DNA of 32,774 nt from a virus. Below the pieces are notes generated by a model. The model had not been told where the DNA came from. It saw only the letters and a list, made by a program, of their open reading frames with translations, and searched no databases. Every line of letters begins with the position of its first letter. Within the stretch, counting starts at the first letter, position 1. Shown in pieces: positions 16,622-31,967 of the stretch. A program made the position numbers and the translations under genes. The stretch covers positions 1 through 32,774 of IMG/VR virus record IMGVR_UViG_3300046820_000137; one strand, given 5' to 3'.

Positions 16622-17917
16622 ATGACAACTCGTCAACAATTAATCGAAAAATGGGCTCCAGTCCTTAATCACGAAGGCGCAGCACCAATCAAAGACCAGT
16701 ATCGTAAAGAAGTTACTGCTGTTCTTTTAGAAAACCAAGAACGTGAAATGCAAAAGCAGCGTGAAGCACTTTTCGAAGCTGCTCCAACTAACGCTGTTGG
16801 TGCATACCCAGACGCTGGTGGTATGGCTAAGTTTGATCCAGTTTTGATCAGCTTGGTTCGTCGTTCTATGCCACAATTGATCGCATATGACATCGCTGGT
16901 GTTCAGCCAATGACTCAGCCAACTGGCTTGATCTTCGCAATGAAGTCACGCTATGGCAACATGGGTGGTACTGAAGCTCTGTTCAACGAAGCTGACACAG
17001 ACTTCTCTGGTACTGGCACTCACAGCGGTACTTACGACTTCGGTGGTTCTGAGACTACTGGTCGTGGTATCGAGACTTCTGACGCTGAGCGTCTGGGTCA
17101 AGGTGGTCAGGGCGATGGTTCTTTCAACCAAATGGCATTCAGCATCGAAAAGACTGCTGTTAGCGCTAAGACTCGTGCTTTGAAGGCTGAGTACTCTATC
17201 GAATTGGCACAAGACATGAAGTCTGTTCATGGTCTTGACGCTGAAGGCGAATTGAGCAACATCCTTTCTAGCGAAATTCTTGCTGAAATCAACCGTGAAG
17301 TTATCCGTACAGTGTACAAGACTGCTAAGCCAGGTGCACAAGTTGGTACTACTTCTGCTGGTACTTTCGACTTGGACACTGACTCTAATGGTCGTTGGTC
17401 TGTTGAAAAATTCAAAGGCTTGATGTTCCAAATCGAACGTGAAGCCAATGCTATCGGTCAGCAAACACGTCGTGGTCGTGGTAACTTCATCATCACTTCT
17501 GCAGACGTAGCTTCTGCATTAGCGATGGCTGGAGTTCTTGACTACACTCCTGCGTTACAAGGTAACAGCAGCTTGAACATCGATGACACTAGCACTACTT
17601 TCGCTGGTGTTCTGAATGGCAAGTACAAAGTGTATGTTGATCCATATACTGCTAACGTAAGCAACACTCAGTTCTTCGTTTGCGGTTACAAAGGTACTAG
17701 CGCATTTGACGCTGGTCTGTTCTACTGCCCATACGTTCCTCTGCAAATGGTTCGTGCAGTTGATCCTAACAGCTTCCAGCCAAAGATTGGCTTCAAGACT
17801 CGTTACGGTTTAGTTGCTAACCCATTCGTTCAGTTGGACAACGAAGACGACAACGGTGTATTGTCTGCTAACAGCAACTACTACTACCGTCGTGTTAAGG
17901 TTACTAACTTAATGTAA
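16622..17917 (+). CDS. 23: Major capsid protein gp23
   Basis: 431 residues. FDPVLISLVRRSMPQLIAYD, with IAGVQPMTQPTGLIFAMKSR, then FSIEKTAVSAKTRALKAEYS and GLDAEGELSNILSSEILAEI with NREVI are diagnostic of T4-type gp23 (HK97 fold). A probable gp21 cleavage site, ALFE^AAPTN after residue 52, fits the hydrophobic-x-Glu rule and would remove the N-terminal delta region. T4 gp23 is 521 residues; aquatic T4-like homologues are shorter, as here. Usage is shifted to frequent, 'fast' codons compared with the fibre genes, as expected for the most abundant virion protein. A strong terminator follows. Confidence 0.95.
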   Translation: MTTRQQLIEKWAPVLNHEGAAPIKDQYRKEVTAVLLENQEREMQKQREALFEAAPTNAVGAYPDAGGMAKFDPVLISLVRRSMPQLIAYDIAGVQPMTQPTGLIFAMKSRYGNMGGTEALFNEADTDFSGTGTHSGTYDFGGSETTGRGIETSDAERLGQGGQGDGSFNQMAFSIEKTAVSAKTRALKAEYSIELAQDMKSVHGLDAEGELSNILSSEILAEINREVIRTVYKTAKPGAQVGTTSAGTFDLDTDSNGRWSVEKFKGLMFQIEREANAIGQQTRRGRGNFIITSADVASALAMAGVLDYTPALQGNSSLNIDDTSTTFAGVLNGKYKVYVDPYTANVSNTQFFVCGYKGTSAFDAGLFYCPYVPLQMVRAVDPNSFQPKIGFKTRYGLVANPFVQLDNEDDNGVLSANSNYYYRRVKVTNLM

Positions 17918-17947
17918 TCTTTTAGAGCCTACGTAGATAGGACTTTT

Positions 17948-17975
17948 GGGGATCCTTCGGGATCCCCTTTTTATT
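17948..17975 (+). terminator. Intrinsic terminator after gene 23
   Basis: GGGGATCC-TTCG-GGATCCCC is a perfect 8-bp stem capped by a stable C(UUCG)G tetraloop, followed at once by TTTTTATTT. It is 30 bases after the capsid stop codon. Confidence 0.92.
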
Positions 17976-17976
17976 T

Positions 17977-17984
17977 CCTAAATA
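17977..17984 (+). promoter_or_regulatory. Possible late promoter directly before gene 3
   Basis: CCTAAATA contains the TAAATA core of the late element and follows the gene 23 terminator. The ATG of the next gene starts only five bases downstream and no Shine-Dalgarno is visible, so a transcript from here would begin at or next to the start codon. Confidence 0.4.
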
Positions 17985-17989
17985 ATAGT

Positions 17990-18520
17990 ATGACTACTCT
18001 ATCTTGCCCAGTACCATCTAATATCAATCCATTGTCTCCAAATGGGTTCATGTTCAGCATTCAAAAATTACCTGAGGTATCGTTTTTCTGCCAGCAGGTA
18101 AATCTTCCAGGTATCACTCTAGGTTCTCCTGAGTTTGGAAACCCATTTCAAACGCAACCTATTCCTGGCGAAACATTGACGTATGATCAACTGACAGTAC
18201 AGTTTTTGGTTGATGACCAGATGACAAACTACATGGCAATCTACAATTGGATTGTCGCTTTAGGTTTCCCAAATACATACGAGCAGTACACAACTTTCTT
18301 TAACAATGATCAACGTGCAAACATTTCAGAGTTGGCAACAAACTACTCTGATTCGACTTTGCAAATTTTGGGCGCAAACAACACTGCAATAAGAACAGTG
18401 CAATTTATTGATATGTTTCCAGTGACTTTAGATTCATTGATGTTCCAATCAACAAACCAAGATGTGAACTACCTAGTTGGAAATGCTACTTTCCGCTACG
18501 GATATTACAAATTCTTGTAA
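17990..18520 (+). CDS. 3: Tail completion/tube terminator protein gp3
   Basis: 176 residues, the same length as T4 gp3. Segments NPLSPNGFMFSIQKLPEVSF, IPGETLTYDQLTVQFLVDDQ, MAIYNWIVALGFP, and LATNYSDSTLQIL fit the gp3 family, which caps the tail tube and interacts with gp15. The position right after gene 23 and before uvsY is the usual one in cyanophage-like T4 genomes. It shares general folds with tube proteins such as gp19. No Shine-Dalgarno precedes the ATG. A small hairpin (TTACAA-ATTC-TTGTAA) overlaps the stop codon and is followed by the promoter for uvsY. Confidence 0.75.
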   Translation: MTTLSCPVPSNINPLSPNGFMFSIQKLPEVSFFCQQVNLPGITLGSPEFGNPFQTQPIPGETLTYDQLTVQFLVDDQMTNYMAIYNWIVALGFPNTYEQYTTFFNNDQRANISELATNYSDSTLQILGANNTAIRTVQFIDMFPVTLDSLMFQSTNQDVNYLVGNATFRYGYYKFL

Positions 18521-18537
18521 GGCAAATTTGTTTTTTT
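18505..18537 (+). terminator. Weak stem-loop plus T-run at end of gene 3
   Basis: TTACAA (18505-18510), loop ATTC, TTGTAA (18515-18520) forms a 6-bp stem that includes the gene 3 stop codon. Ten bases later a run of seven T (18531-18537) occurs inside the next promoter. It is A/T-rich and weak as a terminator, but it is placed like the stem-loop of a stem-loop/promoter cassette. Confidence 0.4.
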
Positions 18538-18556
18538 GTAATAGATGAGGTATAAT
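18528..18556 (+). promoter_or_regulatory. Sigma70-like promoter for uvsY-uvsW
   Basis: -35 TTGTTT (18528-18533), 17-base spacer, -10 TATAAT (18551-18556). The gene start is 27 bases downstream with a GTGAGGT ribosome binding site. It belongs to the five-member promoter family of this window. Confidence 0.85.
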
Positions 18557-18582
18557 GCCTCTATCTAATAAGTGAGGTAATT

Positions 18583-19020
18583 ATGAATATTGAACAGCTA
18601 CAAGAGATGTGGGAAAAAGATTGCGAGATTGATGACAATTATCTCGGTGAACAATCCACAGCAACCCCTAAACTCCACGCTAAGTATGTTAAGATCTTAG
18701 TGCAGGTCAAACTCAAACACACTAAGTTGATGGCAGAACACAATCTGCTTCGTAAAAATAAGTTTCGTTATTTCCGTGGCGAGATGTCACGTGAAGAACT
18801 AAAAGAAAATAATTGGGAGCAGTGGCAAGGTATCAAGCCACTCAAGAACGAGATGGATGAATTTTTGACTGGTGACAATGAGTTAAACAATTCTGAAGTC
18901 AAGATAAAATATCTCGAGACAATGATTTATCTTTTGGAATCTATCCTACAGCAAATCAAAGCAAGAGATTGGCAAATAAAAACCCACGTTGAGTGGAAAA
19001 AGTTTCTAGCAGGGATGTGA
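18583..19020 (+). CDS. uvsY: Recombination mediator UvsY
   Basis: 145 residues (T4 UvsY is 137). UvsY loads the UvsX recombinase on gp32-covered single-stranded DNA. The charged helical sequence with YVKILVQVKLKHTKLMAEHN, then LLRKNKFRYFRGEMSREEL, followed by VKIKYLETMIYLLESILQQI and KARDWQIKTHVEWKKFLAG, matches the UvsY plan including the C-terminal IK.R...IK....W..F..G. The gene is coupled to uvsW by a TGATG overlap, as in related phages. A dedicated early/middle promoter precedes it. Confidence 0.85.
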   Translation: MNIEQLQEMWEKDCEIDDNYLGEQSTATPKLHAKYVKILVQVKLKHTKLMAEHNLLRKNKFRYFRGEMSREELKENNWEQWQGIKPLKNEMDEFLTGDNELNNSEVKIKYLETMIYLLESILQQIKARDWQIKTHVEWKKFLAGM

Positions 19021-20510
19021 TGCAGAATGTAGTTACTATTGAAAAGTTAGATGAAGTTTATGTTAGAGTTTTTTCTGAGCCTAGCATTGAACAGGAATTG
19101 GCAGACTTCTTCACTTATGAGTATCCAGGAGCGAAATTTACTCCACAGTACAGAGCAAGGTTGTGGGATGGTAAAGTTCGTCTATATGACCAACTAAGAA
19201 AAACATTATACGTTGGTCTGGTTGAGTATGTAAAATCTTTTGCTGAAAGAAATAATTATGCACTACAAATATCAGATGACATCGCCGTACAAAATGATAT
19301 CGATGAGACTCAGCTACAACAATGGCTCCGAGATCTTAATCCACAATCAAGAAACGAACCAATCCAAATCAGAGACTACCAGTTCGATGCCATCCACAAA
19401 GCACTTTCTACTGAAAGAGTTTTATTGCTATCGCCAACAGCTTCAGGCAAATCGCTTATCATTTACTCTATTATCAGATGGCACTTGGAACGCAACCATA
19501 AGTGCATAATCATAGTCCCAACAACTTCGTTAGTTGAGCAGTTGTATGCAGACTTCGAAGACTATTCGAGCGCTAATGGTTGGGGTACATCAGTGTACTG
19601 TCAGAAACTTTATGCAGGGTTTCCAAAACAATTTTCTAAAGATGTTTTGATAACTACATGGCAGTCTATCTACTTGCAACCAAAAGCATGGTTCAAACAG
19701 TTTGATGTAATTCTTGGTGACGAAGCGCACCAGTTTAAAGCAAAGTCCTTAACAACAGTTATGGAAAAGATGGACAATGTTCGTTATCGTATTGGTACAA
19801 CAGGTACACTGGATAACAAAAAGATTCATCAGTTGGTTCTTGAGGGTGTGTTTGGTAAGGTACACAGGGTAACCACTACCAAGGCGCTGATGGATTCAGG
19901 AAGATTGTCTAGCCTAAATATAACGTGTGTGATTTTAAAATACTCTGAAGAAATTCGTAAAGAACGTAAAAATAACACGTACCAAGAAGAAATGGATTGG
20001 TTAGTTACGAATGAAAAGCGTAACAAATTTATCCGAAACTTGGCAGTAACTTCTAAAGGTAACACGCTGGTTCTTTTTCAATACGTTGAAAAGCACGGCA
20101 AAGTTCTCTACGAACTTATTAAGAATAAAGTACATGAAGATCGTAAAGTATTTTTCGTTTATGGTGGTACAGAAACCTCTGATCGAGAGGCTATCCGTCA
20201 TATATGCGAAGGAGAAACAGATGCAATTATCATTGCGTCGTTTGGAACATTTTCTACTGGTATCAACATACCTTCGATTGAGAATGTTATCTTTGCTTCT
20301 CCTTCTAAGAGTAAGATACGTAATCTACAAAGTATCGGGCGTGGTCTAAGATTGAAAGATGGCAAACAAAGTTGTAAACTGTTTGACATTGCTGATGATT
20401 TACATTGGAAGACGTGGAAGAACCATACTCTAAATCATGCTGCAGAAAGATACAAGACCTACGCTGAAGAAGAATTTAAAACAAAAATCGTAGAGGTGGT
20501 ATTATGTTAA
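19020..20510 (+). CDS. uvsW: DNA/RNA helicase UvsW
   Basis: 496 residues from the ATG at 19020 overlapping the uvsY stop; an upstream GTG at 18993 is in frame but inside uvsY. UvsW is the superfamily 2 helicase that unwinds R-loops and branched intermediates and helps switch T4-type replication from origin to recombination mode. Walker A is SPTASGKS (138-145), the DEAH box 234-237 (VILGDEAHQF), motif III GTTGT, motif VI QSIGRGLRLKDGK. The N-terminal domain (FFTYEYPGAKFTPQYRARLW, then DGKVRLYD) is the DNA-binding region typical of UvsW. The length is close to T4 UvsW (503). Confidence 0.95.
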   Translation: MQNVVTIEKLDEVYVRVFSEPSIEQELADFFTYEYPGAKFTPQYRARLWDGKVRLYDQLRKTLYVGLVEYVKSFAERNNYALQISDDIAVQNDIDETQLQQWLRDLNPQSRNEPIQIRDYQFDAIHKALSTERVLLLSPTASGKSLIIYSIIRWHLERNHKCIIIVPTTSLVEQLYADFEDYSSANGWGTSVYCQKLYAGFPKQFSKDVLITTWQSIYLQPKAWFKQFDVILGDEAHQFKAKSLTTVMEKMDNVRYRIGTTGTLDNKKIHQLVLEGVFGKVHRVTTTKALMDSGRLSSLNITCVILKYSEEIRKERKNNTYQEEMDWLVTNEKRNKFIRNLAVTSKGNTLVLFQYVEKHGKVLYELIKNKVHEDRKVFFVYGGTETSDREAIRHICEGETDAIIIASFGTFSTGINIPSIENVIFASPSKSKIRNLQSIGRGLRLKDGKQSCKLFDIADDLHWKTWKNHTLNHAAERYKTYAEEEFKTKIVEVVLC

Positions 20511-20956
20511 GTGGCGATGAAATGTTTATTGTTCTAAAGTTGACTTCAGGCGAACAAGTCATGGCAGTGTTGTCTGCTGAGGACGAAGAATATGTACAGT
20601 TGATTTCTCCAATGTGCATAAGAACTATCCCTGTATTACAAACTGGCAAAGAGCATATCACAGCTGCACCACTCTGCCCGTTCACGGATGACACAACTTA
20701 TATCTTAGCCAAGAAAGATATAATTTATCTGAAGAAGTTGCATCAAGCATTCGTATCTCATTATAAAAAGATTGTAACAGAGTACGAAGAAATGACAACC
20801 TTCCAACCTGCTGACGAAAGCCACAAGGATTGGGACGATGAAAGCATGAGCCCAGAAGAGGCAAAGAAGAGAATAGAAATGCTAAAAGATTTAGCTAGAG
20901 AAGAATCAGAAGAACGATACCAGATATTCGTTCAAGGTGACGATACAGTTCATTAA
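20504..20956 (+). CDS. Conserved small protein downstream of uvsW (unknown)
   Basis: 150 residues. The ATG overlaps the end of uvsW by seven bases and has a GAGGTGG ribosome binding site. The N-terminal 70 residues (MFIVLKLTSGEQVMAVLSAE, then YVQLISPMCIRT) have the pattern K-L-x-x-G-x-x-(V/I)-x-(G/A)-x-(L/V) followed by P-M, which resembles small Sm-like beta barrels in phage proteins I have seen at this locus. The rest is helical, acidic and charged (SPEEAKKRIEMLKDLAREES). No catalytic motif. Co-transcription with uvsY-uvsW suggests a link to recombination or RNA metabolism; this is inference. Confidence 0.55.
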   Translation: MLSGDEMFIVLKLTSGEQVMAVLSAEDEEYVQLISPMCIRTIPVLQTGKEHITAAPLCPFTDDTTYILAKKDIIYLKKLHQAFVSHYKKIVTEYEEMTTFQPADESHKDWDDESMSPEEAKKRIEMLKDLAREESEERYQIFVQGDDTVH

Positions 20957-20971
20957 TGTCATCATCATCCC

Positions 20972-20984
20972 TAGACACTGTCTA
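20972..20984 (+). other. Short inverted repeat TAGACA-C-TGTCTA
   Basis: A perfect 6-base inverted repeat around a single C, 16 bases after the stop of the gene ending at 20956. Its arms are identical to those of the gene 18 leader hairpin (8925-8942). As RNA the one-base loop would open at least one pair. No T-run follows. Confidence 0.35.
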
Positions 20985-21009
20985 TTATCCAGCAAGACAA
21001 ATATAAAAG

Positions 21010-21046
21010 CAAATTTATTTTGTAATGAAATAAGATTTGTCTTTTT
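21010..21046 (+). terminator. Stem-loop with T-run overlapping the gene 55 promoter
   Basis: CAAAT-TTATTT pairs with AAATAA-(G)-ATTTG across a 7-base loop, 11 pairs with one bulged G (21010-21039), followed by TCTTTTT. The A/T-rich stem is modest. Its 3' arm runs into the -35 box of the downstream promoter, so stem-loop and promoter form one unit. Confidence 0.5.
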
Positions 21047-21065
21047 ACCATACCTGATGTATACT
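21037..21065 (+). promoter_or_regulatory. Sigma70-like promoter for the 55-AAA-47-46 operon
   Basis: -35 TTGTCT (21037-21042), 17-base spacer, -10 TATACT (21060-21065). The start codon of gene 55 is 30 bases downstream with an AAGGAAA ribosome binding site. It belongs to the shared promoter family. Confidence 0.85.
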
Positions 21066-21094
21066 TATGAAATATTTGAAAGGAAATTGTATGT

Positions 21095-21652
21095 ATGGCT
21101 CACTACGTAAACAACGCTGACTTCTTAAAAGCATTAATTGAATATAGACAATTAAAGATTGATGCACAGCAAGAAGGTAAAGATAAACCCATTGTTAGCA
21201 ATTACATCGGCGAATGTATTCTTAAAATTGCTACACACCTTTCTTACAAACCAAACTTTATAAACTATTCTTATCGAGATGACATGATTCTCGATGGTGT
21301 GGAAAACTGTATTCAATACATTGACAACTTTGATCCAACTAAGTCAAGCAACCCTTTCGCTTACTTCACGCAGATTATCTACTATGCATTCCTGCGCCGT
21401 ATTGCCAAAGAAAAGAAACAAAGTTATATCAAAGGTAAACTGATTCAAGATTTACCATTTGAAGCCTTTGATGTGCAAGATGGTGATGATGACCGAGAGT
21501 TTCATAATGCGTACTTAGAGTTTATGCAACAAAATCATAACTTTGATGATTTTATAGAACGCAAAAAAGAAAAGAAGAAAAAGAAGCAGCCGAACTTAGA
21601 TGAATTCATAGGTGATGAAAATGGCGAATCCGATACGGGACTTGTTGAATAG
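21095..21652 (+). CDS. 55: Late-transcription sigma factor gp55
   Basis: 185 residues, matching T4 gp55 (185). gp55 binds host RNA polymerase and recognises the TATAAATA late element. The core region NYSYRDDMILDGVENCIQYI, then DNFDPTKSSNPFAYFTQIIY with YAFLRRIAKEKK, is the sigma region 2-like block of this family. The C-terminal NLDEFIGDENG region corresponds to the part that contacts the sliding clamp in T4. A lysine-rich run (KKEKKKKK) precedes it. The ATG at 21095 sets the frame; an ATG four bases earlier is in another frame. Late-promoter matches at 8912, 11194 and 15590 are likely targets. Confidence 0.93.
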   Translation: MAHYVNNADFLKALIEYRQLKIDAQQEGKDKPIVSNYIGECILKIATHLSYKPNFINYSYRDDMILDGVENCIQYIDNFDPTKSSNPFAYFTQIIYYAFLRRIAKEKKQSYIKGKLIQDLPFEAFDVQDGDDDREFHNAYLEFMQQNHNFDDFIERKKEKKKKKQPNLDEFIGDENGESDTGLVE

Positions 21653-22817
21653 TTTGTCTAAAACATACGCTACACCCAGAACAAGACCCAGAGCTATGAC
21701 ACGTTCCAGAGCAATAAGAAATCGTCGTGCCCGAAGTGAAAGATTCTTAAAAAGATACACTTGGGACGCTACTGATAATATGTTACATTTGAAAAAGATT
21801 ATGGAAAACAAAGACAATATTTTTCTTGGAGTTAGTGATATTGAAGATTTGATCTCTTCTGAGATCATGCAACGTCGTGTCGATGCCAATCAAACAACAG
21901 TTCAACGTGAAACTTCAATTCTTGCCAATCGTTCTACTTGGAAGGAATGGGCTGAGGTGAACTTTAGCGAATACTTGTTCGTACAAACAAGTTCTTCTTC
22001 TGGTGTCATCGTTGACGAAAAGACCAACAACTTTATTAAGTTTAGTGTTAACAGCAACTCAACAGAAGTTCGTGCATTCGGCGATGCCAAATTTGCTGAT
22101 GGTATCATCCAATTCGTTGAGGGTAACTTTGATATCGTCACATCTTACATCGAGTGGGTTTATGGTAGCGATGGCAACTCTGTCAACGTGCCACTGAATC
22201 GTTCTCGTCTACCAATCAAAGAGATGTACCCATTCCTTGGCGATGAATCTCTTGAAGATTATTACGATCGTTATATGAACAGCAACGCAAACATCTTGTT
22301 GCTGATTGGTCCACCTGGAACTGGCAAGACTACATTCATTCGTGGTCTGTTGGCACACCGCAATTCTTCTGCAATCGTAACATACGATTCTAACATTCTT
22401 GACAAAGATGGATTCTTCGCAAGATTTATCGAAGACGATGCAGATGTTATGGTTCTTGAAGACAGCGATGCATTCTTGAAATCTCGTAGCGATGGTAACA
22501 CAATGATGCATCGTTTCTTGAACGTGGGTGATGGACTAGTCACAACCAAAGGTAAGAAGATGGTTTTCTCTACTAATCTTCCAAGCATTCGTGACATTGA
22601 CTCTGCCTTGGTTCGTCCAGGTCGTTGCTTTGACATCGTTACATTTGAAGCACTAAAAGTTGATGAAGCACATAAACTTGCTGACAAACTTGGTGTTCAA
22701 CTGCCAGTGCGCCCACTCGGTAAAGAAACTGCTCCATACACTTTGGCTGAAGTTTTCAACCAACAATCAGAAAACGCTAAGGTTGCCACAACAAATAGAA
22801 AGGTAGGTTTTATTTGA
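21621..22817 (+). CDS. AAA-family ATPase (BCS1-like core), unknown role
   Basis: 398 residues from the ATG at 21621, which has AGGTGA five bases upstream; ATG 21615 and GTG 21612 are alternatives. It overlaps the end of gene 55 by 32 bases. The first 45 residues are strikingly arginine-rich (TPRTRPRAMTRSRAIRNRRA). Residues 50-215 form an unrecognised N-terminal domain. The AAA core has Walker A GPPGTGKT (230-237), Walker B VMVLED (276-281), sensor FSTNLPSI and RPGR (332-335). The single C-terminal AAA module and the arrangement resemble BCS1-type ATPases. Its place between the late sigma gene and the 47/46 recombination nuclease suggests a role in DNA metabolism or transcription, but nothing in the sequence fixes it. 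Confidence 0.8.
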   Translation: MANPIRDLLNSLSKTYATPRTRPRAMTRSRAIRNRRARSERFLKRYTWDATDNMLHLKKIMENKDNIFLGVSDIEDLISSEIMQRRVDANQTTVQRETSILANRSTWKEWAEVNFSEYLFVQTSSSSGVIVDEKTNNFIKFSVNSNSTEVRAFGDAKFADGIIQFVEGNFDIVTSYIEWVYGSDGNSVNVPLNRSRLPIKEMYPFLGDESLEDYYDRYMNSNANILLLIGPPGTGKTTFIRGLLAHRNSSAIVTYDSNILDKDGFFARFIEDDADVMVLEDSDAFLKSRSDGNTMMHRFLNVGDGLVTTKGKKMVFSTNLPSIRDIDSALVRPGRCFDIVTFEALKVDEAHKLADKLGVQLPVRPLGKETAPYTLAEVFNQQSENAKVATTNRKVGFI

Positions 22818-23866
22818 AGACAGCAATTATTACAGACCAGCATTTCGGGGCACGTAATGATAGTATTGCTTTCTTAGATTTCTTTCAAAAATTCTATGAC
22901 AATACTTTCTTTCCTACACTTGACGAACACAATATTAGTCACGTTCTTATCCTCGGTGATACTTTTGATCGTAGGAAGTATGTTAATTTCTACGCACTCC
23001 AGCGAGCGAAGGAAATGTTCTTTGATAAATTACATTCTAGAGGCATTTCTGTTTTTATGTTGGCTGGCAACCATGACACTTACTATAAAAATACTAATAA
23101 TGTAAACTCCCCAGACTTGCTGCTGAAGGAGTATTCCAACATTACAGTTATAGACTCGCCAAAAACAATCACAGTTGATGGTATTGATATCTGTATGATG
23201 CCATGGATCTGTCCTGACAACTATCAGGAAAGTATTGACCATATGAAAAATACCAAAGCTGATCTTTGTATGGGGCATTTCGAAATATCTGGCTTTGCAA
23301 TGTATAGAGGCGCTGAATCACATGAGGGACTTTCTAAAGAAACATTCGATAAATTTGATATGGTTTTTAGCGGGCATTACCATCACAAAAGCGATGATGG
23401 TCATATCTATTACCTTGGAAACCCATACGAACTCACGTGGCAAGACTTTAACGATCCCAGAGGATTTCACCTGTTTGATGTTAACACCAGAGAACTCGAA
23501 TTCGTCAGAAACCCTTATACTATGTTTTCAAGAATCGAGTACGATGACAAGGGAAAGGATCCCATTGACTTAGATGCTTACGATCTTAAAGATTGTTATG
23601 TCAAACTCATTGTTGTGAACAAAACCGACTATTACAAATTTGACAAATTTATACAGAAGCTGTATAGTAAGGCTGCGCATGACATCAAGGTTGTCGAAAA
23701 TCTATCAGAGTTTGAGGATGGTGAGGTTAGTGAGGAGATTAACCTTGAAGATACGCTATCTGTCCTTGCTAATTATGTTGACTCGATTGAGACGGAAGTC
23801 GATAAAGAACAAGTTAAAACTTACCTGCGAACACTCTACACGGAAGCAGTAAATATCGAAGTATGA
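22814..23866 (+). CDS. 47: Recombination endonuclease subunit gp47 (Mre11-like)
   Basis: 350 residues. It starts at a TTG (22814) overlapping the preceding TGA as TTGA, preceded by AAGGTAGG; no in-frame ATG fits the conserved N-terminus. Phosphodiesterase motifs are ITDQHFG (D8, H10), LGDTFD (D49), AGNHD (N86, H87), and SGHYHH near residue 195, as in Mre11/SbcD. The length matches T4 gp47 (339). With gp46 it forms the nuclease that resects ends, supports recombination-dependent replication and degrades host DNA. Confidence 0.93.
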   Translation: MKTAIITDQHFGARNDSIAFLDFFQKFYDNTFFPTLDEHNISHVLILGDTFDRRKYVNFYALQRAKEMFFDKLHSRGISVFMLAGNHDTYYKNTNNVNSPDLLLKEYSNITVIDSPKTITVDGIDICMMPWICPDNYQESIDHMKNTKADLCMGHFEISGFAMYRGAESHEGLSKETFDKFDMVFSGHYHHKSDDGHIYYLGNPYELTWQDFNDPRGFHLFDVNTRELEFVRNPYTMFSRIEYDDKGKDPIDLDAYDLKDCYVKLIVVNKTDYYKFDKFIQKLYSKAAHDIKVVENLSEFEDGEVSEEINLEDTLSVLANYVDSIETEVDKEQVKTYLRTLYTEAVNIEV

Positions 23867-25581
23867 TCACATTTAAATCTGTACAATGGCAGAACTTTCT
23901 GTCAACTGGTAATTCACCGAACAAAGTTTTACTAAACAAATCACCAACCACTCTTATCATCGGTAAGAACGGTGAAGGTAAAAGCACAATCTTAGATGCA
24001 TTGTGCTTTTCTCTATTTGGTAAACCATTCCGCAATATCAACAAAGGGCAGTTGGTAAATTCTATCAACCAGAAAAAGTGCGTTGTTGAGATTGAATTTG
24101 ATATTAATGGTAAAGAGTATAAAGTCATTCGTGGTATCAAACCAAACATCTTTGAGATCTATCAAGATGGCGAGTTGTTGAATCAAGATGCTGCCGCACG
24201 TGACTACCAAAAGATTCTAGAACAGCAGATTATTAAACTTAATTACAAGACATTCACGCAAGTTGTTATTCTTGGTAGTGCTTCATTTGTCCCATTCATG
24301 CAGCTATCACCCCTGCAGCGTAGGGAAGTGATTGAAGATATTTTGGACATCCGTATCTTTTCTATCATGAATCAGTTGTTGAAGGATAAAGCCAATGACA
24401 CAAAATCAGAAATTACACGGATTGAAACTGAGATTGCGAGTGCAAAGACTAAAGTCGAAGCACAAACTCAAATTATTAAAACTATATCGGAAGCGAAAGC
24501 AAATAATATTAGATCCATCCAAGAGAAAATCGCAGCAAGCACTGAAGAAATTGAGCGAACTCAATCGGAAGTTGATGTCCTCATCGGAGAGATCACAACT
24601 CTTAAAGCAACGATTAGCGACAAGGCAAAAGTACAAGAAGATCTCGAAAAAGCAAAAACCATCAGAAGTAAATTACACTCAAAGCTCGAAACATGTGAGC
24701 ATCATAAAGAATTTTTTACTTCGAATCATGTATGCCCCAGTTGTTCGCAGACTATCCCAGAAGAACACAAACACTCTATCCTCAGCGATCTTAACAACAA
24801 GGTCACAGACCAGAATGCTAAGGTTGCAGAACTCGAAAAAGTTCTTGGGTCTCTCAATGACAGACTATCGAACATTAACTTGGTCTTGGATCAGATTACA
24901 GAAAAGAACATTGAACTCTCTACAAAGAACTCAGCAATATCCGTCGTTAACAAACAGATCGCTGCCATGGAAAGAGAAGTTGAAACTCATAAAGAAGACA
25001 CGACAAATATTGACGATGAAAAGTCTAAGCTAAAAGGTTTAGCACAAGACGCACTTGATAAGATCAAAGCCAAAACTTCTCTACAAGAACATCGCAATCT
25101 TGAAGAAGTTGCTTCTGTGTTGTTGAAAGATACTGGTATTAAGACAGCTATCATTCGTGAGTATCTGCCAATCATGAACAAGTTGATCAACAAGTATCTG
25201 AATGCCATGGATGCTTATATCCACTTTGAGTTAGACGAAGCGTTCAACGAAGTTGTCAAGAGCCGTTTCCGTGATGAGTTTACTTATGCCAGTTTCTCTG
25301 AGGGTGAGAAGATGCGCATTGACTTGGCTATCCTGTTTACTTGGCGTCAGATCGCAAAGATGAAGAACAGCGTCAATACCAACTTGTTGCTGTTGGATGA
25401 GATCTTTGATTCATCTCTTGACACTGCTGGTACAGATTACTTCTTGAATCTGATGAATCAGTTTGGTGACAACTCTAACATCTTTGTTATCTCTCACAAA
25501 GGCGACCAGTTGTTTGACAAGTTCAGATCCGTCATTAAGTTTGAAAAACGAAACGACTTCTCTGTAATTATAAAAAACTAA
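23863..25581 (+). CDS. 46: Recombination endonuclease subunit gp46 (Rad50-like)
   Basis: 572 residues (T4 gp46 is 560), ATGA overlap with gene 47. This is an SMC-type ATPase: Walker A GKNGEGKST (34-42), a coiled-coil arm from about 170, the zinc hook CPSC (291-294) at the turn, a returning coiled coil, signature FSEGEKM (478-484), Walker B LLLLDE (508-513) and a terminal switch His (ISHKGD). It partners gp47 as Rad50 partners Mre11. It ends the 55-AAA-47-46 operon; a 190-base non-coding gap follows. Confidence 0.95.
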   Translation: MITFKSVQWQNFLSTGNSPNKVLLNKSPTTLIIGKNGEGKSTILDALCFSLFGKPFRNINKGQLVNSINQKKCVVEIEFDINGKEYKVIRGIKPNIFEIYQDGELLNQDAAARDYQKILEQQIIKLNYKTFTQVVILGSASFVPFMQLSPLQRREVIEDILDIRIFSIMNQLLKDKANDTKSEITRIETEIASAKTKVEAQTQIIKTISEAKANNIRSIQEKIAASTEEIERTQSEVDVLIGEITTLKATISDKAKVQEDLEKAKTIRSKLHSKLETCEHHKEFFTSNHVCPSCSQTIPEEHKHSILSDLNNKVTDQNAKVAELEKVLGSLNDRLSNINLVLDQITEKNIELSTKNSAISVVNKQIAAMEREVETHKEDTTNIDDEKSKLKGLAQDALDKIKAKTSLQEHRNLEEVASVLLKDTGIKTAIIREYLPIMNKLINKYLNAMDAYIHFELDEAFNEVVKSRFRDEFTYASFSEGEKMRIDLAILFTWRQIAKMKNSVNTNLLLLDEIFDSSLDTAGTDYFLNLMNQFGDNSNIFVISHKGDQLFDKFRSVIKFEKRNDFSVIIKN

Positions 25582-25676
25582 AACTAAAGTAAACTGTTGT
25601 CTTTAATCCCTGCAAGTGGCGATTCAGAATGCTACTATCGTGCAACTTACACTAAAGTCGCCTAACAGGTGAAAAC
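25582..25676 (+). other. Non-coding gap with an orphan -35-like box
   Basis: No open reading frame of note occurs between gene 46 and the terminator at 25677. TTGTCTTTAAT at 25597-25607 is an excellent copy of the -35 region of the local promoter family, but no acceptable -10 lies 16-18 bases downstream (CGATTC at the expected place). GGCGA (25618-25622) and TCGCC (25658-25662) could pair over a long loop. It may be a decayed promoter or an untranslated RNA segment. Confidence 0.35.
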
Positions 25677-25708
25677 AATAACCCTACTTTGCGTAGGGTT
25701 ATTTTTAT
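25677..25708 (+). terminator. Intrinsic terminator CCCTAC...GTAGGG (1)
   Basis: AATAACCCTAC - TTTGC - GTAGGGTTATT is a perfect 11-bp stem with a 5-base loop, and the 3' arm runs into ATTTTTATTT. It ends the operon of gene 46 and lies just before the next promoter. The same CCCTAC/GTAGGG core recurs at 27968 and 29263. Confidence 0.88.
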
Positions 25709-25715
25709 TTGCAAC

Positions 25716-25744
25716 TTGTCTTTTATTCAGAATTGAGGCATAAT
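25716..25744 (+). promoter_or_regulatory. Sigma70-like promoter for the CobT-like gene
   Basis: -35 TTGTCT (25716-25721), 17-base spacer, -10 CATAAT (25739-25744), 26 bases before the ATG. A TAGGAG ribosome binding site follows. Member of the shared promoter family, directly after terminator 25677. Confidence 0.82.
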
Positions 25745-25770
25745 TCAGTCTGACATCTAGGAGATATATA

Positions 25771-27954
25771 ATGGAAATGAAAGCAAGCGATCTCTCCGCT
25801 AAACTTTTGGCCACTGAAAACCTTTCAGTGGTTCGTGCCCGAGCACGTACTGCATCTTTCGACATCAAGAGTCGAATTTTGACCCTTCCAATGTGGAAGG
25901 AAATGACCCCTGAGATTGAGGACATGCTCATTGGTCACGAAGTGGCACATGCACTTTACACTTCTGAAGAATACCTGCAACCAATCAGAGAAAATACCAA
26001 ACTGATGGGCTACATGAACATCATCGAAGATGTTCGTATCGAAAAACTAATCAAACGCAAATATCCAGGTCTACGCAAGCGTATGAACGATGGATATAAA
26101 CAACTCAACGATCGTGACTTCTTTGGTGTGAAGACGATTCAAAATTTTGACGATCTGCTTTTGATTGACAAAATCAACCTATACTTCAAAGTCGGGTTCA
26201 ACTGTGGTGTCACATTCTCACCAGAAGAAAAAACATTTGTGAATCGTGCCGAACGATGCGAGACTATTGACGATGTTATTAGTCTTGCCAAGGACATCTT
26301 TGATTACTCAAAGCAAAAAGCTGAAGAACGCAAAGAGCGTATGGGTGCACAAGATGTGGAAGAAGACGAAGATCCAACAGAAGGTGATTTTGACATCGAT
26401 GATCAAGATGACTTTGATGACATGGAAGATGATGACGAAACTGATAACCCGAATGGTGGCAGTTCTCAACCAAAATCTGAATCTGCTGAAGAAGACGAAG
26501 ACGAAGACCTAGCACCTAAGACAGAACGTGTGTTCCAGAATCGTCTGGATGATTTGGCTGACGAATCGACTGAGTACAAGTATTGGAAATTTGATACCGA
26601 TTTTATTGAATCGCCTATTATCGGCTACAAGAAAATTCTTAGCGAAACCAAGTCACCTGAGCAGTGGACAGAGGAAGATTCGCTAGAAGGTAGTCGCATG
26701 TTGCGTTATATGTCTGACGAAGATCGTGTCACGTGGATGAAACAACAGTCCGCTGAATACGAAAACTTCAAAGTCGAGACAACTCGCACTGTGAATTATC
26801 TTGTCAAAGAATTCGAAATGAAAAAGTCTGCCCAGTTGCACAAGCGTGCACAGACTTCTAAAATTGGTTCTCTGGACATGCGTAAAGTTTATGCGTATAA
26901 ACTCAAAGATGATTTGTTTAAGCGTGTTACCACTTTACCGCAAGGTAAGAATCATGGCATGATTATGCTTGTTGACTGGTCTGGTTCCATGAACGAAGTG
27001 TTACACGACACTATTAAACAAGTTGTTAGTTTGGCTCAGTTCTGTAACAGAATCCAAATTCCATATCGTGTCTATGCATTCACATCCGCATATTCGGATA
27101 CCAGTGACTATGACAAGTACGTTCAAAACGATCGTAAGCGTCGTGAGTGGATGAAAGCAAAGCAATTGTCTACTGATGCCTTGTTGCATGTTGATAATGG
27201 ATTTAATTTGCTAGAATTGTTTTCTAGTAAAATGACTACCAGTGAATTTAATGCAATGGCGAAGCGAACAATCGACTATCGTTTCACCCTTAACAAAGGA
27301 TATTCAACTGGTGGTACTCCATTGAATGAAGCTATGGCATGGGTTTACTTGAACCTTGGCAACTTCATTAAGGACAACAACATTGAGAAAACCACATTCA
27401 TCACTTTGTCTGATGGAGAAGGTAGTTCTATGCATCCAGTTCCTAATAGTTATCATCACACTCTGGATTCAGAACGTAGTGAAGTTGTTAATGGGGTGTG
27501 GAAGCGAATCAAGACCAAACACTTTATCAAAGATGAAGTGACTCAAAAGACATACGAAATTGATCGTTATTCTACGAATCAAGCGAATGTTATTTTGAAG
27601 ATGATCAAAGACCGATACAATGTTTCTATTGTTGGTTTTTACATCTGTCCGAACAACAAAGGTAGTTTGCGCAATGCAATTGCTGCGAACATTCCAGATT
27701 ATCGTGGCGATGTTTATGGTTTGATTGATCAGTGGCGTCTTGACTTTAAGAAAGAAAACTTTGCTTCGATCAAAAACACTGGTCGAGATGAGTTGTTCAT
27801 CATCCCTCAGTCTTCTACTAAAATTGTAGATACTCAATTGGAAGTTGATTCCACTGCAAGAGCAGTCAACATTGCAAAACAATTCGGCAAGTACCTTAAC
27901 ATTAGGAAGACTAACCGAATCCTGTTGAATCGCTTTGTATCCCTTGTGGCGTAA
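25771..27954 (+). CDS. CobT-like protein: zincin motif plus VWA domain
   Basis: 727 residues. The N-terminal region contains HEVAH (56-60) and, 25 residues on, NIIEDVRIE, a gluzincin-like HExxH...E pair suggesting a metallopeptidase fold. Residues about 205-257 are a very acidic, low-complexity linker. The C-terminal half is a von Willebrand A domain with a complete MIDAS: DWSGS (D402, S404, S406), GGTP (T516), LSDG (D548). This layout matches CobT-like partners of CobS/MoxR AAA+ ATPases, and such an ATPase is the next gene. In T4-like aquatic phages these are annotated as cobalamin-related, but the large chelatase subunit CobN is not visible here, so a remodelling or peptidase role is as likely. 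It has its own promoter and terminator. Confidence 0.8.
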   Translation: MEMKASDLSAKLLATENLSVVRARARTASFDIKSRILTLPMWKEMTPEIEDMLIGHEVAHALYTSEEYLQPIRENTKLMGYMNIIEDVRIEKLIKRKYPGLRKRMNDGYKQLNDRDFFGVKTIQNFDDLLLIDKINLYFKVGFNCGVTFSPEEKTFVNRAERCETIDDVISLAKDIFDYSKQKAEERKERMGAQDVEEDEDPTEGDFDIDDQDDFDDMEDDDETDNPNGGSSQPKSESAEEDEDEDLAPKTERVFQNRLDDLADESTEYKYWKFDTDFIESPIIGYKKILSETKSPEQWTEEDSLEGSRMLRYMSDEDRVTWMKQQSAEYENFKVETTRTVNYLVKEFEMKKSAQLHKRAQTSKIGSLDMRKVYAYKLKDDLFKRVTTLPQGKNHGMIMLVDWSGSMNEVLHDTIKQVVSLAQFCNRIQIPYRVYAFTSAYSDTSDYDKYVQNDRKRREWMKAKQLSTDALLHVDNGFNLLELFSSKMTTSEFNAMAKRTIDYRFTLNKGYSTGGTPLNEAMAWVYLNLGNFIKDNNIEKTTFITLSDGEGSSMHPVPNSYHHTLDSERSEVVNGVWKRIKTKHFIKDEVTQKTYEIDRYSTNQANVILKMIKDRYNVSIVGFYICPNNKGSLRNAIAANIPDYRGDVYGLIDQWRLDFKKENFASIKNTGRDELFIIPQSSTKIVDTQLEVDSTARAVNIAKQFGKYLNIRKTNRILLNRFVSLVA

Positions 27955-27960
27955 GGCTTT

Positions 27961-27992
27961 GCAAAGACCCTACCACCAGTAGGGTTATTTGC
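27961..27992 (+). terminator. Stem-loop CCCTAC...GTAGGG (2)
   Basis: GCAAA-g-ACCCTAC - CACCA - GTAGGGT-ta-TTTGC gives a 7-bp core stem extended by a second 5-bp helix across a small internal loop. The following T content is modest (TTATTTGC), so termination may be partial. It has the same core as 25677 and 29262. Confidence 0.7.
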
Positions 27993-28001
27993 AGAAAATG
28001 C

Positions 28002-28030
28002 TTGCCTTTTATTGCTACTTGATGTAAACT
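28002..28030 (+). promoter_or_regulatory. Sigma70-like promoter for the MoxR/CobS-like gene
   Basis: -35 TTGCCT (28002-28007), 17-base spacer, -10 TAAACT (28025-28030). The start codon is 32 bases downstream with TATGGAGAT as ribosome binding site. Member of the shared promoter family. Confidence 0.8.
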
Positions 28031-28062
28031 TACGTTATTAACCTTGATTATGGAGATTTGTG

Positions 28063-29241
28063 ATGAGTAGAGTTGATGCTGTGTTTCGCCGTGAATTCGA
28101 ACTGAAACTCTTTGAGATGTACCCTGATGTGCAAACTCGTGGTACAGTCAGTCGTCCTGAATTGATGAGTGTCATGAAAACACTCAAGACTGAGAAATAT
28201 CCTCTGTGGCTTATGAAAGATAAACTTGGTCGTGGATTGTATGCCATCGATGGTGGTACTTATCGTGCTGCTGATGCGCAAGTTATTGGTAATAATGTTT
28301 TGAAAGAAAACCCTGTGAGACAAGAATCATTCGTAGTAGACTACACAGACACTAAATCACTCATCCCTGTTAAAGATTCCAACTTTGTTCCATTCGGCAA
28401 CTATGCTGACTTGGAGAACATTATCAAGTCTGGAATCTTTTATCCTGCATACATCTCTGGTCCAACTGGTAATGGTAAGTCTACCATGGTTGAACAGATT
28501 TGTGCCAAGCACAAGAAACCACTCATTCGTGTTAACCTTAACATGATGACTGACGAAGAACAACTCATTGGTTCTAAGACTCTTGTCGAAGGCAACGTGC
28601 ATGTTGTAGAAGGTCCAGTTCTTATCGCTATGCGCACTGGCACCACTTTGCTGCTTGACGAAATTGACGCTGGCTCTGCTAACACCTTGCTGTGTTTGCA
28701 ACCGATTCTTGAAGGTAAACCATACTACTTCAAGCTGAACAACGAAATGATTATCCCTGCTGCTGGTTTCAATGTCATTGCGACTGCGAACACTAAAGGT
28801 AAGGGTTCAGACGATGGTCGATACATCGGTACTAACATTCTTAACGAAGCATTCTTGGAGCGTTTCGCTGTAACCTTCGAACAGGAATATCCTGCTGCGA
28901 AAGTAGAGGTGAAGATCATCAAGAATCTGATGCATTCATATGGCTGTGTTGATGATGAGTTTGCCGAAACTCTTGTGAAGTGGGCTGATGCTATTCGCCG
29001 TACCTTTGCAGATGGTGGTGTTGACGAAACTATCACAACTCGTCGTATGATCCACATCGTTCGTGCGTTTGCCATCTTCAAAGATCGCACTAAGGCTGTG
29101 GAACTTTGCTGCAATCGTTTTGATGCAGCAACCAAGAGTGCATTTATCGACTTGTACGATAAAGTTGCAAACCCCCAACCCGAAGTTGTGCCATCGGAGA
29201 CTGCCATCAAGACTCCAGAAAGCGAAGAGATCCCATTCTAA
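28063..29241 (+). CDS. cobS-like: MoxR/CobS-like AAA+ ATPase
   Basis: 392 residues from the ATG at 28063; a GTG three bases earlier is in frame but less likely. Walker A is GPTGNGKST (133-141), Walker B TLLLDEID (195-202), then LQPILEGK, sensor ATANTKGKG and the CobS hallmark GRYIGTNILNEAFLERFAVT. CobS is the AAA+ subunit of the aerobic cobaltochelatase; MoxR relatives act with VWA proteins as chaperone-like remodelling machines. The gene directly follows the VWA/zincin protein, so the two probably form a MoxR-VWA complex. It ends with a short flexible tail (PSETAIKTPESEEIPF) and is followed by a palindrome, a CCCTAC stem-loop and a promoter. Confidence 0.85.
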   Translation: MSRVDAVFRREFELKLFEMYPDVQTRGTVSRPELMSVMKTLKTEKYPLWLMKDKLGRGLYAIDGGTYRAADAQVIGNNVLKENPVRQESFVVDYTDTKSLIPVKDSNFVPFGNYADLENIIKSGIFYPAYISGPTGNGKSTMVEQICAKHKKPLIRVNLNMMTDEEQLIGSKTLVEGNVHVVEGPVLIAMRTGTTLLLDEIDAGSANTLLCLQPILEGKPYYFKLNNEMIIPAAGFNVIATANTKGKGSDDGRYIGTNILNEAFLERFAVTFEQEYPAAKVEVKIIKNLMHSYGCVDDEFAETLVKWADAIRRTFADGGVDETITTRRMIHIVRAFAIFKDRTKAVELCCNRFDAATKSAFIDLYDKVANPQPEVVPSETAIKTPESEEIPF

Positions 29242-29246
29242 AAAGT

Positions 29247-29260
29247 AATACTTAAGTATT
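29247..29260 (+). other. Perfect 14-base palindrome AATACTTAAGTATT
   Basis: A perfect 14-base DNA palindrome just upstream of the stem-loop at 29262. It could be a protein-binding site or part of a longer hairpin. No function can be assigned. Confidence 0.4.
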
Positions 29261-29261
29261 A

Positions 29262-29284
29262 ACCCTACAACCCGTAGGGTCTTT
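29262..29284 (+). terminator. Stem-loop CCCTAC...GTAGGG (3)
   Basis: ACCCTAC - AACCC - GTAGGGT is a perfect 7-bp stem with a 5-base loop followed by CTTT. Third copy of the stem core seen at 25677 and 27961, again just ahead of a TTGCCT promoter. The short T-run suggests partial termination. Confidence 0.7.
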
Positions 29285-29295
29285 ACAAAAAGAAC

Positions 29296-29324
29296 TTGCC
29301 TTTAATGGTCTTTTATAGTAGAAT
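29296..29324 (+). promoter_or_regulatory. Sigma70-like promoter for the gene at 29370
   Basis: -35 TTGCCT (29296-29301), 17-base spacer, -10 TAGAAT (29319-29324), about 45 bases before the start codon. Member of the shared promoter family. Confidence 0.8.
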
Positions 29325-29369
29325 AATGTTTGTAGTGTTGGAAAACTTCTTTTGAAAAGGAAATATATC

Positions 29370-29855
29370 ATGTTGAAATTTGCAAACCTGTCCCTCGCCC
29401 AGAAACGATTCGTTGTGGCTGTCATTGAGTCTAACCCTCAGTACAAGAAAGATCCTCAGATCACACTGAAGGAATGTGCCTCAATCTATTACACTTTGCG
29501 TGACCAACGCACTGGTGCCAAGGGTGAGAAAATCGGTTATCCTAACTGGTTGTTTAACAAGAACAAGGTTGAGCGTGGTGTTTACCAGCTGCCTGTTCCT
29601 ACTGCTGCAGAACTTTCTGATTATCAGAAAGAACTGAACACCAAGCAGACACCTAAAGTCACTAAGGCTAAGGCTACAGTTGCCAAACTGCAGAAAGCCA
29701 AGACTGTGGCAGTTAAGAAAGAAAAACCTGCAGTGAAAGCTCAAGAAGCTCTTGAAACTTCTCGCCTGCAGAAAATCGTAGAAGACTCTTTTGAAGTTGA
29801 CGCTGATGTCGAAGACTTCAACCAGATCCTGCGAGAAAACGGTATTGAAGTCTAA
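29370..29855 (+). CDS. Lysine/alanine-rich small protein, unknown
   Basis: 161 residues from the ATG at 29370, preceded by AAAGGAAA; a TTG at 29352 in the same frame is less likely. The N-terminal domain (1-75; LSLAQKRFVVAVIESNPQYK, then ITLKECASIYYTLRDQ and GEKIGYPNWLFNKNKVERGV) looks like a compact helical fold with a possible helix-turn-helix. Residues 90-125 are rich in Lys, Ala and Val (TKAKATVAKLQKAKTVAVKK), resembling basic histone-like or nucleic-acid-binding tails. The acidic C-terminus ends VDADVEDFNQILRENGIEV. I do not recognise the family. A DNA-binding role is only suggested by composition. Confidence 0.65.
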   Translation: MLKFANLSLAQKRFVVAVIESNPQYKKDPQITLKECASIYYTLRDQRTGAKGEKIGYPNWLFNKNKVERGVYQLPVPTAAELSDYQKELNTKQTPKVTKAKATVAKLQKAKTVAVKKEKPAVKAQEALETSRLQKIVEDSFEVDADVEDFNQILRENGIEV

Positions 29856-29870
29856 TCAATAGGCTTTGTT

Positions 29871-29913
29871 AGTCGTCTGGGGTATTGCCATCGCCCCAGA
29901 CGATTCTTTTCAT
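29871..29913 (+). terminator. Strong hairpin terminator after 29855
   Basis: AGTCGTCTGGGG pairs with CCCCAGACGATT (12 pairs with one G-T) around an 11-base loop, followed by CTTTTCATTT. It lies 16 bases after the stop codon. Confidence 0.8.
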
Positions 29914-29944
29914 TTAGATGGTCTTATTATGGAGATATAATTAT

Positions 29945-30205
29945 ATGTCTAAGCAAGCAAAACTTCTCAACTATCTTCAAACTGGTGCTGAAGTAACTGC
30001 TCGTCAGATTCATGGATCCTTTGGTTTGAGCAACCCACACGATGCAATTTACCAATTGCGTAACCAAGGTCATTGCATCTACAGCAACAAGGCAACTCTG
30101 CACGATGGTACTGAGACTATCAAGTATCGTATCGGCAAGCCAAGCAAGCGCATGGTAGCAATCGCTAATCGTGTCGTTGGCGCTACTGTCTTCACCCGCA
30201 CATAA
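29945..30205 (+). CDS. Small winged-helix/HTH protein
   Basis: 86 residues from the ATG at 29945, which has TATGGAGATATAA upstream. KLLNYLQTGAEVTARQIHGS, then FGLSNPHDAIYQLRNQGHCI, gives a helix-turn-helix with the usual A-x-x-I...GL-S..DAIYQLR...G..I order. It is followed by a two-strand wing (HCIYSNKATL...TIKYRIGKPS). Such small phage proteins are annotated as helix-turn-helix DNA-binding proteins. It could be a transcriptional modulator. The terminator upstream and hairpin downstream bracket it, yet I see no clear promoter between. Confidence 0.7.
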   Translation: MSKQAKLLNYLQTGAEVTARQIHGSFGLSNPHDAIYQLRNQGHCIYSNKATLHDGTETIKYRIGKPSKRMVAIANRVVGATVFTRT

Positions 30206-30218
30206 TCAGTGTGTAATT

Positions 30219-30253
30219 AATGGACATTCTTCCGAGTGTCCATTGCTTATTTC
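30219..30253 (+). terminator. Hairpin between 30205 and 30266
   Basis: AATGGACATTC - TTCC - GAGTGTCCATT is an 11-pair stem with one T-G pair and a 4-base loop, followed by GCTTATTTC. It is a likely weak terminator or an mRNA-processing/stability element, placed 22 bases before the next start codon. Confidence 0.6.
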
Positions 30254-30265
30254 ATTGGAGATAAT

Positions 30266-31139: not shown

Positions 31140-31149
31140 AGGAAATAAT

Positions 31150-31947: not shown

Positions 31948-31967
31948 TTTTATAAAAAGGAAAAACT

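Follow-up and report, generated by a model that had tools for sequence, protein, structure and literature searches.

The window analysed here (the whole 32.8 kb IMG/VR fragment, record IMGVR_UViG_3300046820_000137, from a freshwater virus of bacteria) was found to contain five sites, in front of uvsY, gp55, a CobT-like gene, a CobS-like gene and an open reading frame (ORF) at 29370, which are probably composite junctions of a T4-type phage related to Kyanoviridae, where the last transcript ends and the next one starts. Each junction would carry an early-type promoter for the host RNA polymerase with a sigma-70-like factor, consisting of an extended -35 box TTKNCTTTWATT, exactly 17 bases and TATAAT, and at three junctions the G-C stem-loop just upstream is the likely terminator of the preceding gene. 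This would allow early and separate transcription of the uvsY-uvsW, gp55-gp47-gp46, CobT-like and CobS-like genes with no need for MotA/AsiA middle promoters. At uvsY the -10 box would lie in the loop of a hairpin open to upstream-derived RNA alone, and at gp55 two back-to-back promoters would face apart, with a leftward RNA antisense to the uvsW operon. The covarying hairpin around the uvsY -10 box and the leftward promoter upstream of gp55 are additions to a preliminary description of this DNA. Positions, spacing, conservation and covariation are established by the sequence.

Promoters and stem-loops of the five junctions

The preliminary description had placed five promoters with an exact 17-base spacer at 18528, 21037, 25716, 28002 and 29296, and all five were present there. 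The elements of the junctions were as follows, with counts in relatives referring to distinct regions with a 17-spaced promoter:

18528..18556, + strand: putative uvsY early promoter, TTGTTT-17-TATAAT (sequence; 78/98 in relatives)
21037..21065, + strand: putative gp55 early promoter, TTGTCT-17-TATACT (sequence)
25716..25744, + strand: putative early promoter of the CobT-like gene, TTGTCT-17-CATAAT (sequence)
28002..28030, + strand: putative early promoter of the CobS-like gene, in the CobT-CobS slot, TTGCCT-17-TAAACT (sequence; 64/68 in relatives)
29296..29324, + strand: putative early promoter of the ORF at 29370, in the slot after CobS, TTGCCT-17-TAGAAT (sequence; 66/66 in relatives)
25677..25703, + strand: stem-loop of 11 base pairs, then TTTTATTTG (terminator scan; -13.8 kcal/mol)
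27966..27986, + strand: stem-loop CCCTAC-N5-GTAGGG (motif scan; -10.5 kcal/mol)
29261..29281, + strand: stem-loop CCCTAC-N5-GTAGGG (motif scan; -10.4 kcal/mol)

The identical CCCTAC-N5-GTAGGG core described for three of the promoters was found at exactly three places in the window; at a tolerance of 2 mismatches the expected number was 0.33, and three were reached in 0/100 shuffles. Among these three stem-loops, 25677-25703 alone was listed by the terminator scan. The A/T-rich stems described for the other two junctions were recovered at 21037, as an inverted repeat at 21005-21045, and only weakly at 18528, where a clearer repeat was found around the -10 box (18544-18565). A generic sigma-70 scan of 17000-32774 gave 50 sites against 39 ± 6.8 expected, with scores of just 9/12 for the promoters at 21037, 25716 and 29296. 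Since this is near expectation, the single promoters of the window are unremarkable, and it is the relatives that make the case.

The junctions were found to occupy the same slots in dozens of relatives, and the cassettes were syntenic across distant phages. The gp55 slot contained a 17-spaced promoter in 113/115 rows, which had been preselected for having a promoter. The cassette-free control gaps contained it in 0/86 (gp23 to the next gene, gp23-gp3), 0/17 (gp47-gp46, gaps of 30-300 bases) and 9/62 (after the ORF at 29370) cases. The relatives with records of about 160 kb were found to contain many cassette copies. A long exact cassette pattern gave 0 matches in viral contigs, the pattern being too strict.

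In a set of seven records (the window and six relatives), scanned for box-to--10 spacings of 13-22, the 12-base box TTKHCWWTWATT followed by a perfect TATAAT showed the spacing 17 in 53/53 cases. A -10-like hexamer at 17 was found behind 66/71 boxes on the sense strand and 1/16 on the opposite strand. The PeSL-like architecture (promoter early stem-loop, with the stem-loop directly upstream of an early promoter) proposed previously was borne out in the sequence at 3/5 window sites and in the same seven records, in which a stem of at least 6 base pairs (at least 3 G-C) within 60 bases upstream was found at 23/51 promoters, against 7.3 ± 2.1 (maximum 12) in shuffles.

The consensus was drawn from 245 distinct promoters of relatives, several columns of which were fixed by the selection pattern itself. 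The free columns contained T at box position 12 in 207/245 and G directly before the -10 box in 224/245. The fifth base was C in 238/245, and A-rich positions were present ahead of the -35 box. The fourth base was A in 114, T in 78 and C in 53, and was found to track lineage, with A in 18/19 promoters of the relative G002 and 8/9 of G005 and more rarely in the others (0/6 in G001, 2/9 in G003, 1/5 in G004, 1/4 in G008 and 0/3 in the window). The TTKNC-type -35 box and the A-rich stretch at about -44 to -40 match the published T4-type early promoter, described in passages of PMC1524935 as TTKNC with an A-rich stretch before -35, a TATAAT-like -10 box and, in phages such as RB49, RB43 and Aeh1, a preferred G at -33, as is also seen here. 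The promoters of this clade differ in a fourth box base that is often T or C, a conserved TTTWATT extension and the G just before the -10 box.

The 17-base spacing was unlike that of MotA middle promoters, in which the MotA box is given as 12 ± 1 bases from the -10 box (excerpts of PMC2988021), so that the window-type promoters do not have the form of middle promoters. AsiA was found in 0/8 related records and in neither Melnitz nor HTVC008M, with the T4 and Ac42 controls positive; the MotA/AsiA middle mode is therefore unlikely. A search for MotCF, run without a positive control, likewise gave 0/8 related records.

The uvsY and gp55 junctions

The uvsY junction was found to contain the following repeat, and the RNA of 18541-18575 was predicted to fold with -10.9 kcal/mol:

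18544..18565, + strand: inverted repeat with the -10 box in its loop, GATGAGG TATAAT GCCTCTATC (sequence; covariation in relatives)

A -10-like hexamer was present in 82/98 unique uvsY upstream regions. The bases flanking it were found to pair mutually, own arms scoring 6.20 against 4.16 ± 0.175 for swapped arms (58 arm types; 0/20,000 permutations), and 6.32 against 4.18 in a second version of the test. The arm pairs varied between phages and stayed complementary, as in CTCTAC..GTAGAG, TTTCATAG..CTATGAAA, TTATGTAG..CTACATAA and GACTAC..GTAGTC. No such signal was found at other promoters (166; z 1.7), at the gp55 -10 box (79; z 0.4) or at the CobS -10 box (32; z 0.9). Of the 16 uvsY regions without a -10-like hexamer, 12 showed another hairpin by eye, and one contained TATAAT outside the position range of the pattern. 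Transcription starts about 7 bases after a -10 box; the RNA begun at the uvsY promoter itself would lack the left arm, and the hairpin would hence form only in RNA arriving from upstream. A role for the hairpin is suggested by this arrangement.

The gp55 junction was found to contain a second promoter on the opposite strand, and the A/T-rich stem before gp55 proved to be two -35 boxes facing apart, one of the leftward and one of the gp55 promoter:

20984..21012, - strand: putative leftward antisense promoter, TTGCTT-17-GATAAT (sequence; 95/111 relatives, 7/8 named isolates)
21005..21045, strand not assigned: A/T-rich inverted repeat whose arms hold the two divergent -35 boxes (sequence)

The leftward -10 box was present at exactly 17 bases in 95/111 distinct gp55 regions, against 6.5 in shuffles, and the spacings 14, 15, 16, 19, 20 and 21 gave 5, 2, 5, 3, 5 and 6; the 69/111 at spacing 18 are the same box read one base earlier. 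No leftward peak at 17 was found in the uvsY (1/98), CobS (0/68) and post-CobS (5/66) slots. The leftward promoters comprised 75 distinct sequences with dissimilar spacers, and were found in the named isolates ACG-2014d, S-RIM8, S-RIM44, S-H38, ACG-2014f, HTVC008M (TTGACA-17-TATAAT) and Melnitz (TTGCTT-17-TATATT); AG-345-F15 was excluded from the isolate count, its gp55 lying outside the stretch examined. The repeat arms were also found to covary (TTTGTCTTTT/AAAAGACAAA, TTTGCCTTT/AAAGGCAAA, TTTACATTT/AAATGTAAA), own arms scoring 8.44 against 7.30 ± 0.20 for swapped arms (0/20,000). In this analysis 4/119 unique upstream regions were excluded for having no recognisable promoter, and ties favoured spacing 17, so that the split of 97 regions with spacing 17 and 18 with spacing 18 is not independent.

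The simplest reading of the gp55 junction is a divergent promoter pair sharing the phage's own -35 dialect, which would explain the covarying repeat too. RNA transcribed leftward would run antisense across the Sm-like gene and uvsW, and may act as a brake on uvsW. No earlier report of this promoter was found in the open-access literature searched, part of it available as excerpts and the two PeSL papers standing outside it. The scan also showed a candidate terminator on the minus strand at the end of uvsY (18983-18997; about 30/102 relatives), where the antisense RNA could stop; it was set aside, as its sequences are conserved codons and no more than 8 distinct sequences were available to the synonymous test. 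In some relatives (e.g. L192, L194, L202, L237 and L195) short hairpins were found right before gp55 with the right arm entering the Shine-Dalgarno sequence (CTTTG..CAAAGGA, CTGGT..ACCAGGA, CCTC..GAGGA), possibly for translational control of the late sigma factor.

Both repeats admit another explanation. The gp55 repeat folds as RNA and its own arms pair better than swapped ones, and it might be merely an A/T-rich terminator hairpin with the leftward promoter as its by-product. This is unlikely, as the repeat accounts for the leftward -35 box but not for a -10 box exactly 17 bases beyond it, and the spacing 17 is kept in cyanophages and HTVC008M with entirely different spacers. G-U and A-C pairs were equally frequent in its arms (49:47), which gives no support for a structure at the RNA level. 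The uvsY repeat might instead function as DNA, within an R-loop replication origin that takes the place of T4 oriF, where a promoter transcript makes the R-loop (excerpts of PMC3016281); oriF is annotated in the T4 uvsY leader, and the shared gene place is a lead and not a result. Such an origin is very improbable here: 12/16 regions without a promoter match keep a hairpin there by eye, G-U pairs are more frequent than A-C pairs, as RNA would predict, the cumulative GC skew climbs nearly without interruption and points to no origin at uvsY, and the T4 geometry is different, with the palindrome in the spacer.

Several observations weigh against the reading of the five sites as end-and-start junctions with the proposed hairpin and divergent pair. 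The relatives are non-independent samples, and an upstream G-C hairpin by the criterion used was missing at 28/51 promoters of the seven records. The window promoters deviate from the sigma-70 consensus, with Y or T for A in the -35 box and with the -10 boxes TAAACT, CATAAT and TAGAAT. The uvsY hairpin has no U-run and is thus not a plain terminator; its arms contained G-U and A-C pairs at 26:4, against a swapped-arm rate of 71% (p 0.04), or at 22:4 when collapsed (p 0.09), which is only suggestive of RNA. The leftward promoter was not found in DSL-LC02, one of the eight named isolates. The published annotation of Melnitz, as far as its excerpts go, retained solely promoters that were intergenic or at most 10 bp from an ORF end, and the antisense one is unmentioned in them.

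Gene content and gene turnover at the junctions

The window was found to contain a T4-type gene set: gp23, uvsY, uvsW, gp55, gp47 and gp46, a tail-tube family protein, a small Sm-like protein, an AAA ATPase and the CobT-like and CobS-like proteins. The closest named phages by gp23 were Methylophilales phage Melnitz, cyanophages and Pelagibacter phage HTVC008M, and most of the closest named phages were filed under Kyanoviridae wherever the taxonomy was displayed. A search of the window against Rfam gave 0 matches. The genes around the junctions were as follows:

18583..19020, + strand: uvsY (PF11056, phrog_231)
19020..20510, + strand: uvsW helicase (PF21241 UvsW_N, phrog_16)
20504..20956, + strand: Sm-like small protein (phrog_471; Pfam match under its cut-off)
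21095..21652, + strand: gp55 late sigma factor (phrog_234)
21621..22817, + strand: AAA ATPase in the gp55 operon (PF00004)
22814..23866, + strand: gp47, SbcD-like (phrog_100)
23863..25581, + strand: gp46, SbcC-like (phrog_77)
25771..27954, + strand: CobT-like protein (phrog_459, labelled 'peptidase'; weak match to phrog_5298, cobalamin biosynthesis)
28063..29241, + strand: CobS-like AAA ATPase (phrog_249, PF07728)

The CobT-like/CobS-like pair, labelled 'peptidase' and 'porphyrin biosynthesis' in PHROGs, was found again in relatives, and the CobT-like gene also in cyanophages. A perfect terminator-like hairpin GGGGATCC-TTCG-GGATCCCC with a T-run was present after gp23 (17948-17967), followed by CTAAATAA, which resembles a late promoter. 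After the ORF at 29370 a strong stem-loop was found at 29872-29903 (13 bp, -21.6 kcal/mol), which looks like a terminator but is not followed by a 17-spaced early promoter; a sixth promoter candidate at 29913-29941 was rejected because its -10 box falls within the ribosome-binding region. An SPFH/band-7 lipoprotein-like gene (31150-31947) adjoins an AhpC/TSA peroxiredoxin gene (31968-32519).

The genes behind the window junctions were uvsY-uvsW-Sm-like, gp55-AAA-gp47-gp46, the CobT-like gene, the CobS-like gene and an ORF that matched no family. Core genes or operons, and not accessory genes, thus follow the junctions, and the previous proposal that the cassettes separate accessory genes one by one did not hold in the window but fitted another region of G002. 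A hyperplastic region among nonessential genes, as expected for PeSL elements, was likewise seen in G002 only and not at the window sites. This region (L094/L095, G002 36898-40494) contained seven similar cassettes of the AATAACCCTCA..TGAGGGGC-TTTACTTTAATT type between ORFs in 3.6 kb; 17 ORFs were listed and 10 scanned, of which 6 matched PHROGs, mostly of unknown function, and 4 had no match. In this dense PeSL-type array the stop codon of a gene often lay within a cassette.

Between gp46 and the CobT-like gene, the sister contig L072 (98.0% identity over 7.5 kb) was found to contain an ORF of 61 amino acids with a promoter of its own. At this place 173 bases have been lost from the window, where the -35 box and 17 codons from the end of the ORF are left; these codons encode the same residues as in L072 with 3 synonymous differences:

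25597..25609, + strand: -35 box left over from a second, former cassette promoter, TTGTCTTTAATCC (alignment with L072, where promoter and ORF are whole)
25612..25665, + strand: last 17 codons and stop of the small ORF, intact with 61 amino acids in L072 (alignment with L072)

In L165 an ORF of 64 amino acids was found between two promoter cassettes, where relatives 89-95% identical on the CobS side have one cassette, and L024 and L028 differed by an ORF of 49 amino acids. The CobT slot contained extra ORFs in 70/83 relatives (57 with at least one promoter, 11 with at least two) and the CobT-CobS slot in 5/81, and three cassette slots were nearly free of them (1/114, 0/117 and 1/79). The cassette-free gp47-gp46 junction contained extra ORFs in 20/90 relatives, with no promoter found; in some of these (e.g. 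L090, L122 and L160) up to three extra genes were present, and in the window gp47 and gp46 overlap. Between G005 and G002 (86% identity) a strict cassette promoter was found within 60 bases of 2/14 indels; one further gap, located at the contig ends of G002, was not counted.

Gene exchange occurs at some cassettes, yet it does not predict cassettes, because three slots are nearly free of extra ORFs, the gp47-gp46 gap shows them in 20/90 relatives and only 2/14 indels lie near a cassette promoter. For the gene gain by recombination between cassettes that had been suggested, L165 is one clean case, next to other ORF gain or loss at 2/5 junctions, and the gp47-gp46 gap and the indels speak against it. 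It is doubtful, though possible, that the junctions exist as mobile PeSL cassettes, i.e. as recombination sites for the entry and exit of accessory genes. The L165 ORF, the CobT slot with its many promoters, the remnant in the window and the seven cassettes of G002 would fit such an origin, whereas the insertion-free slots (3/5), the gp47-gp46 gap and the indels do not, the window deletion ends inside the promoter and the ORF and not at matching cassette positions, and the cassettes are syntenic across distant phages.

Likeness to known systems and biological meaning

The PeSL elements of T4-type phages were reportedly described by Arbiol in 2010 and by Comeau in 2014. They are also treated in excerpts of PMC4503421. 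The window junctions share with them a stem-loop followed by a strong early promoter and several copies per genome, lying between small ORFs in G002. They differ in preceding core genes at conserved places, in having the promoter boxes within the repeat at 2/5 sites and in a shuffling role visible in single cases only. The leaders of T4 genes e, soc, 49 and I-TevI (excerpts of PMC3014915) also contain a promoter within a hairpin-coding region, where only read-through RNA folds. In those leaders the promoter is late and the hairpin hides the ribosome site, whereas the uvsY junction contains an early-type promoter in the loop and the ribosome site outside. The CfrI RNA of cyanophage S-PM2 (excerpts of PMC2984593) is likewise a case of antisense transcription in a T4-like phage, predicted only in the present case; CfrI is located at psbA, whereas the present candidate, which faces uvsW, is found between the Sm-like gene and gp55. 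For cyanophage P-HM2 in Prochlorococcus MED4, strand-resolved RNA-seq with counts of sense and antisense reads has been published (PMC5082946).

The promoter and terminator activities, their timing and the roles of the hairpin and of the antisense RNA are predictions from these patterns. UvsW of T4 is a late product that unwinds R-loops at origins (excerpts of PMC3016281). It is conceivable, though quite improbable, that the divergent pair is ancient in Kyanoviridae-type phages and that its leftward early RNA silences transcription of uvsY-uvsW or collides with it, keeping UvsW low while R-loop origins are used; the pair and the hairpin-embedded uvsY promoter, which sits at the equivalent of oriF, would then form a cis-encoded timer for the switch to recombination-dependent replication and late transcription without MotA/AsiA.

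The uvsY arrangement would be a single stretch holding both a start signal and a structure open only to read-through RNA. The timing of the 'middle' genes in T4-type phages without MotA/AsiA is given as an open point in passages of PMC2984593, and the conserved antisense promoter opposite uvsW, beside the late sigma gene, offers a concrete test site for this question. The leftward promoter spans phages of Synechococcus, Pelagibacter and Methylophilales, and would thus be accessible in cultured systems.

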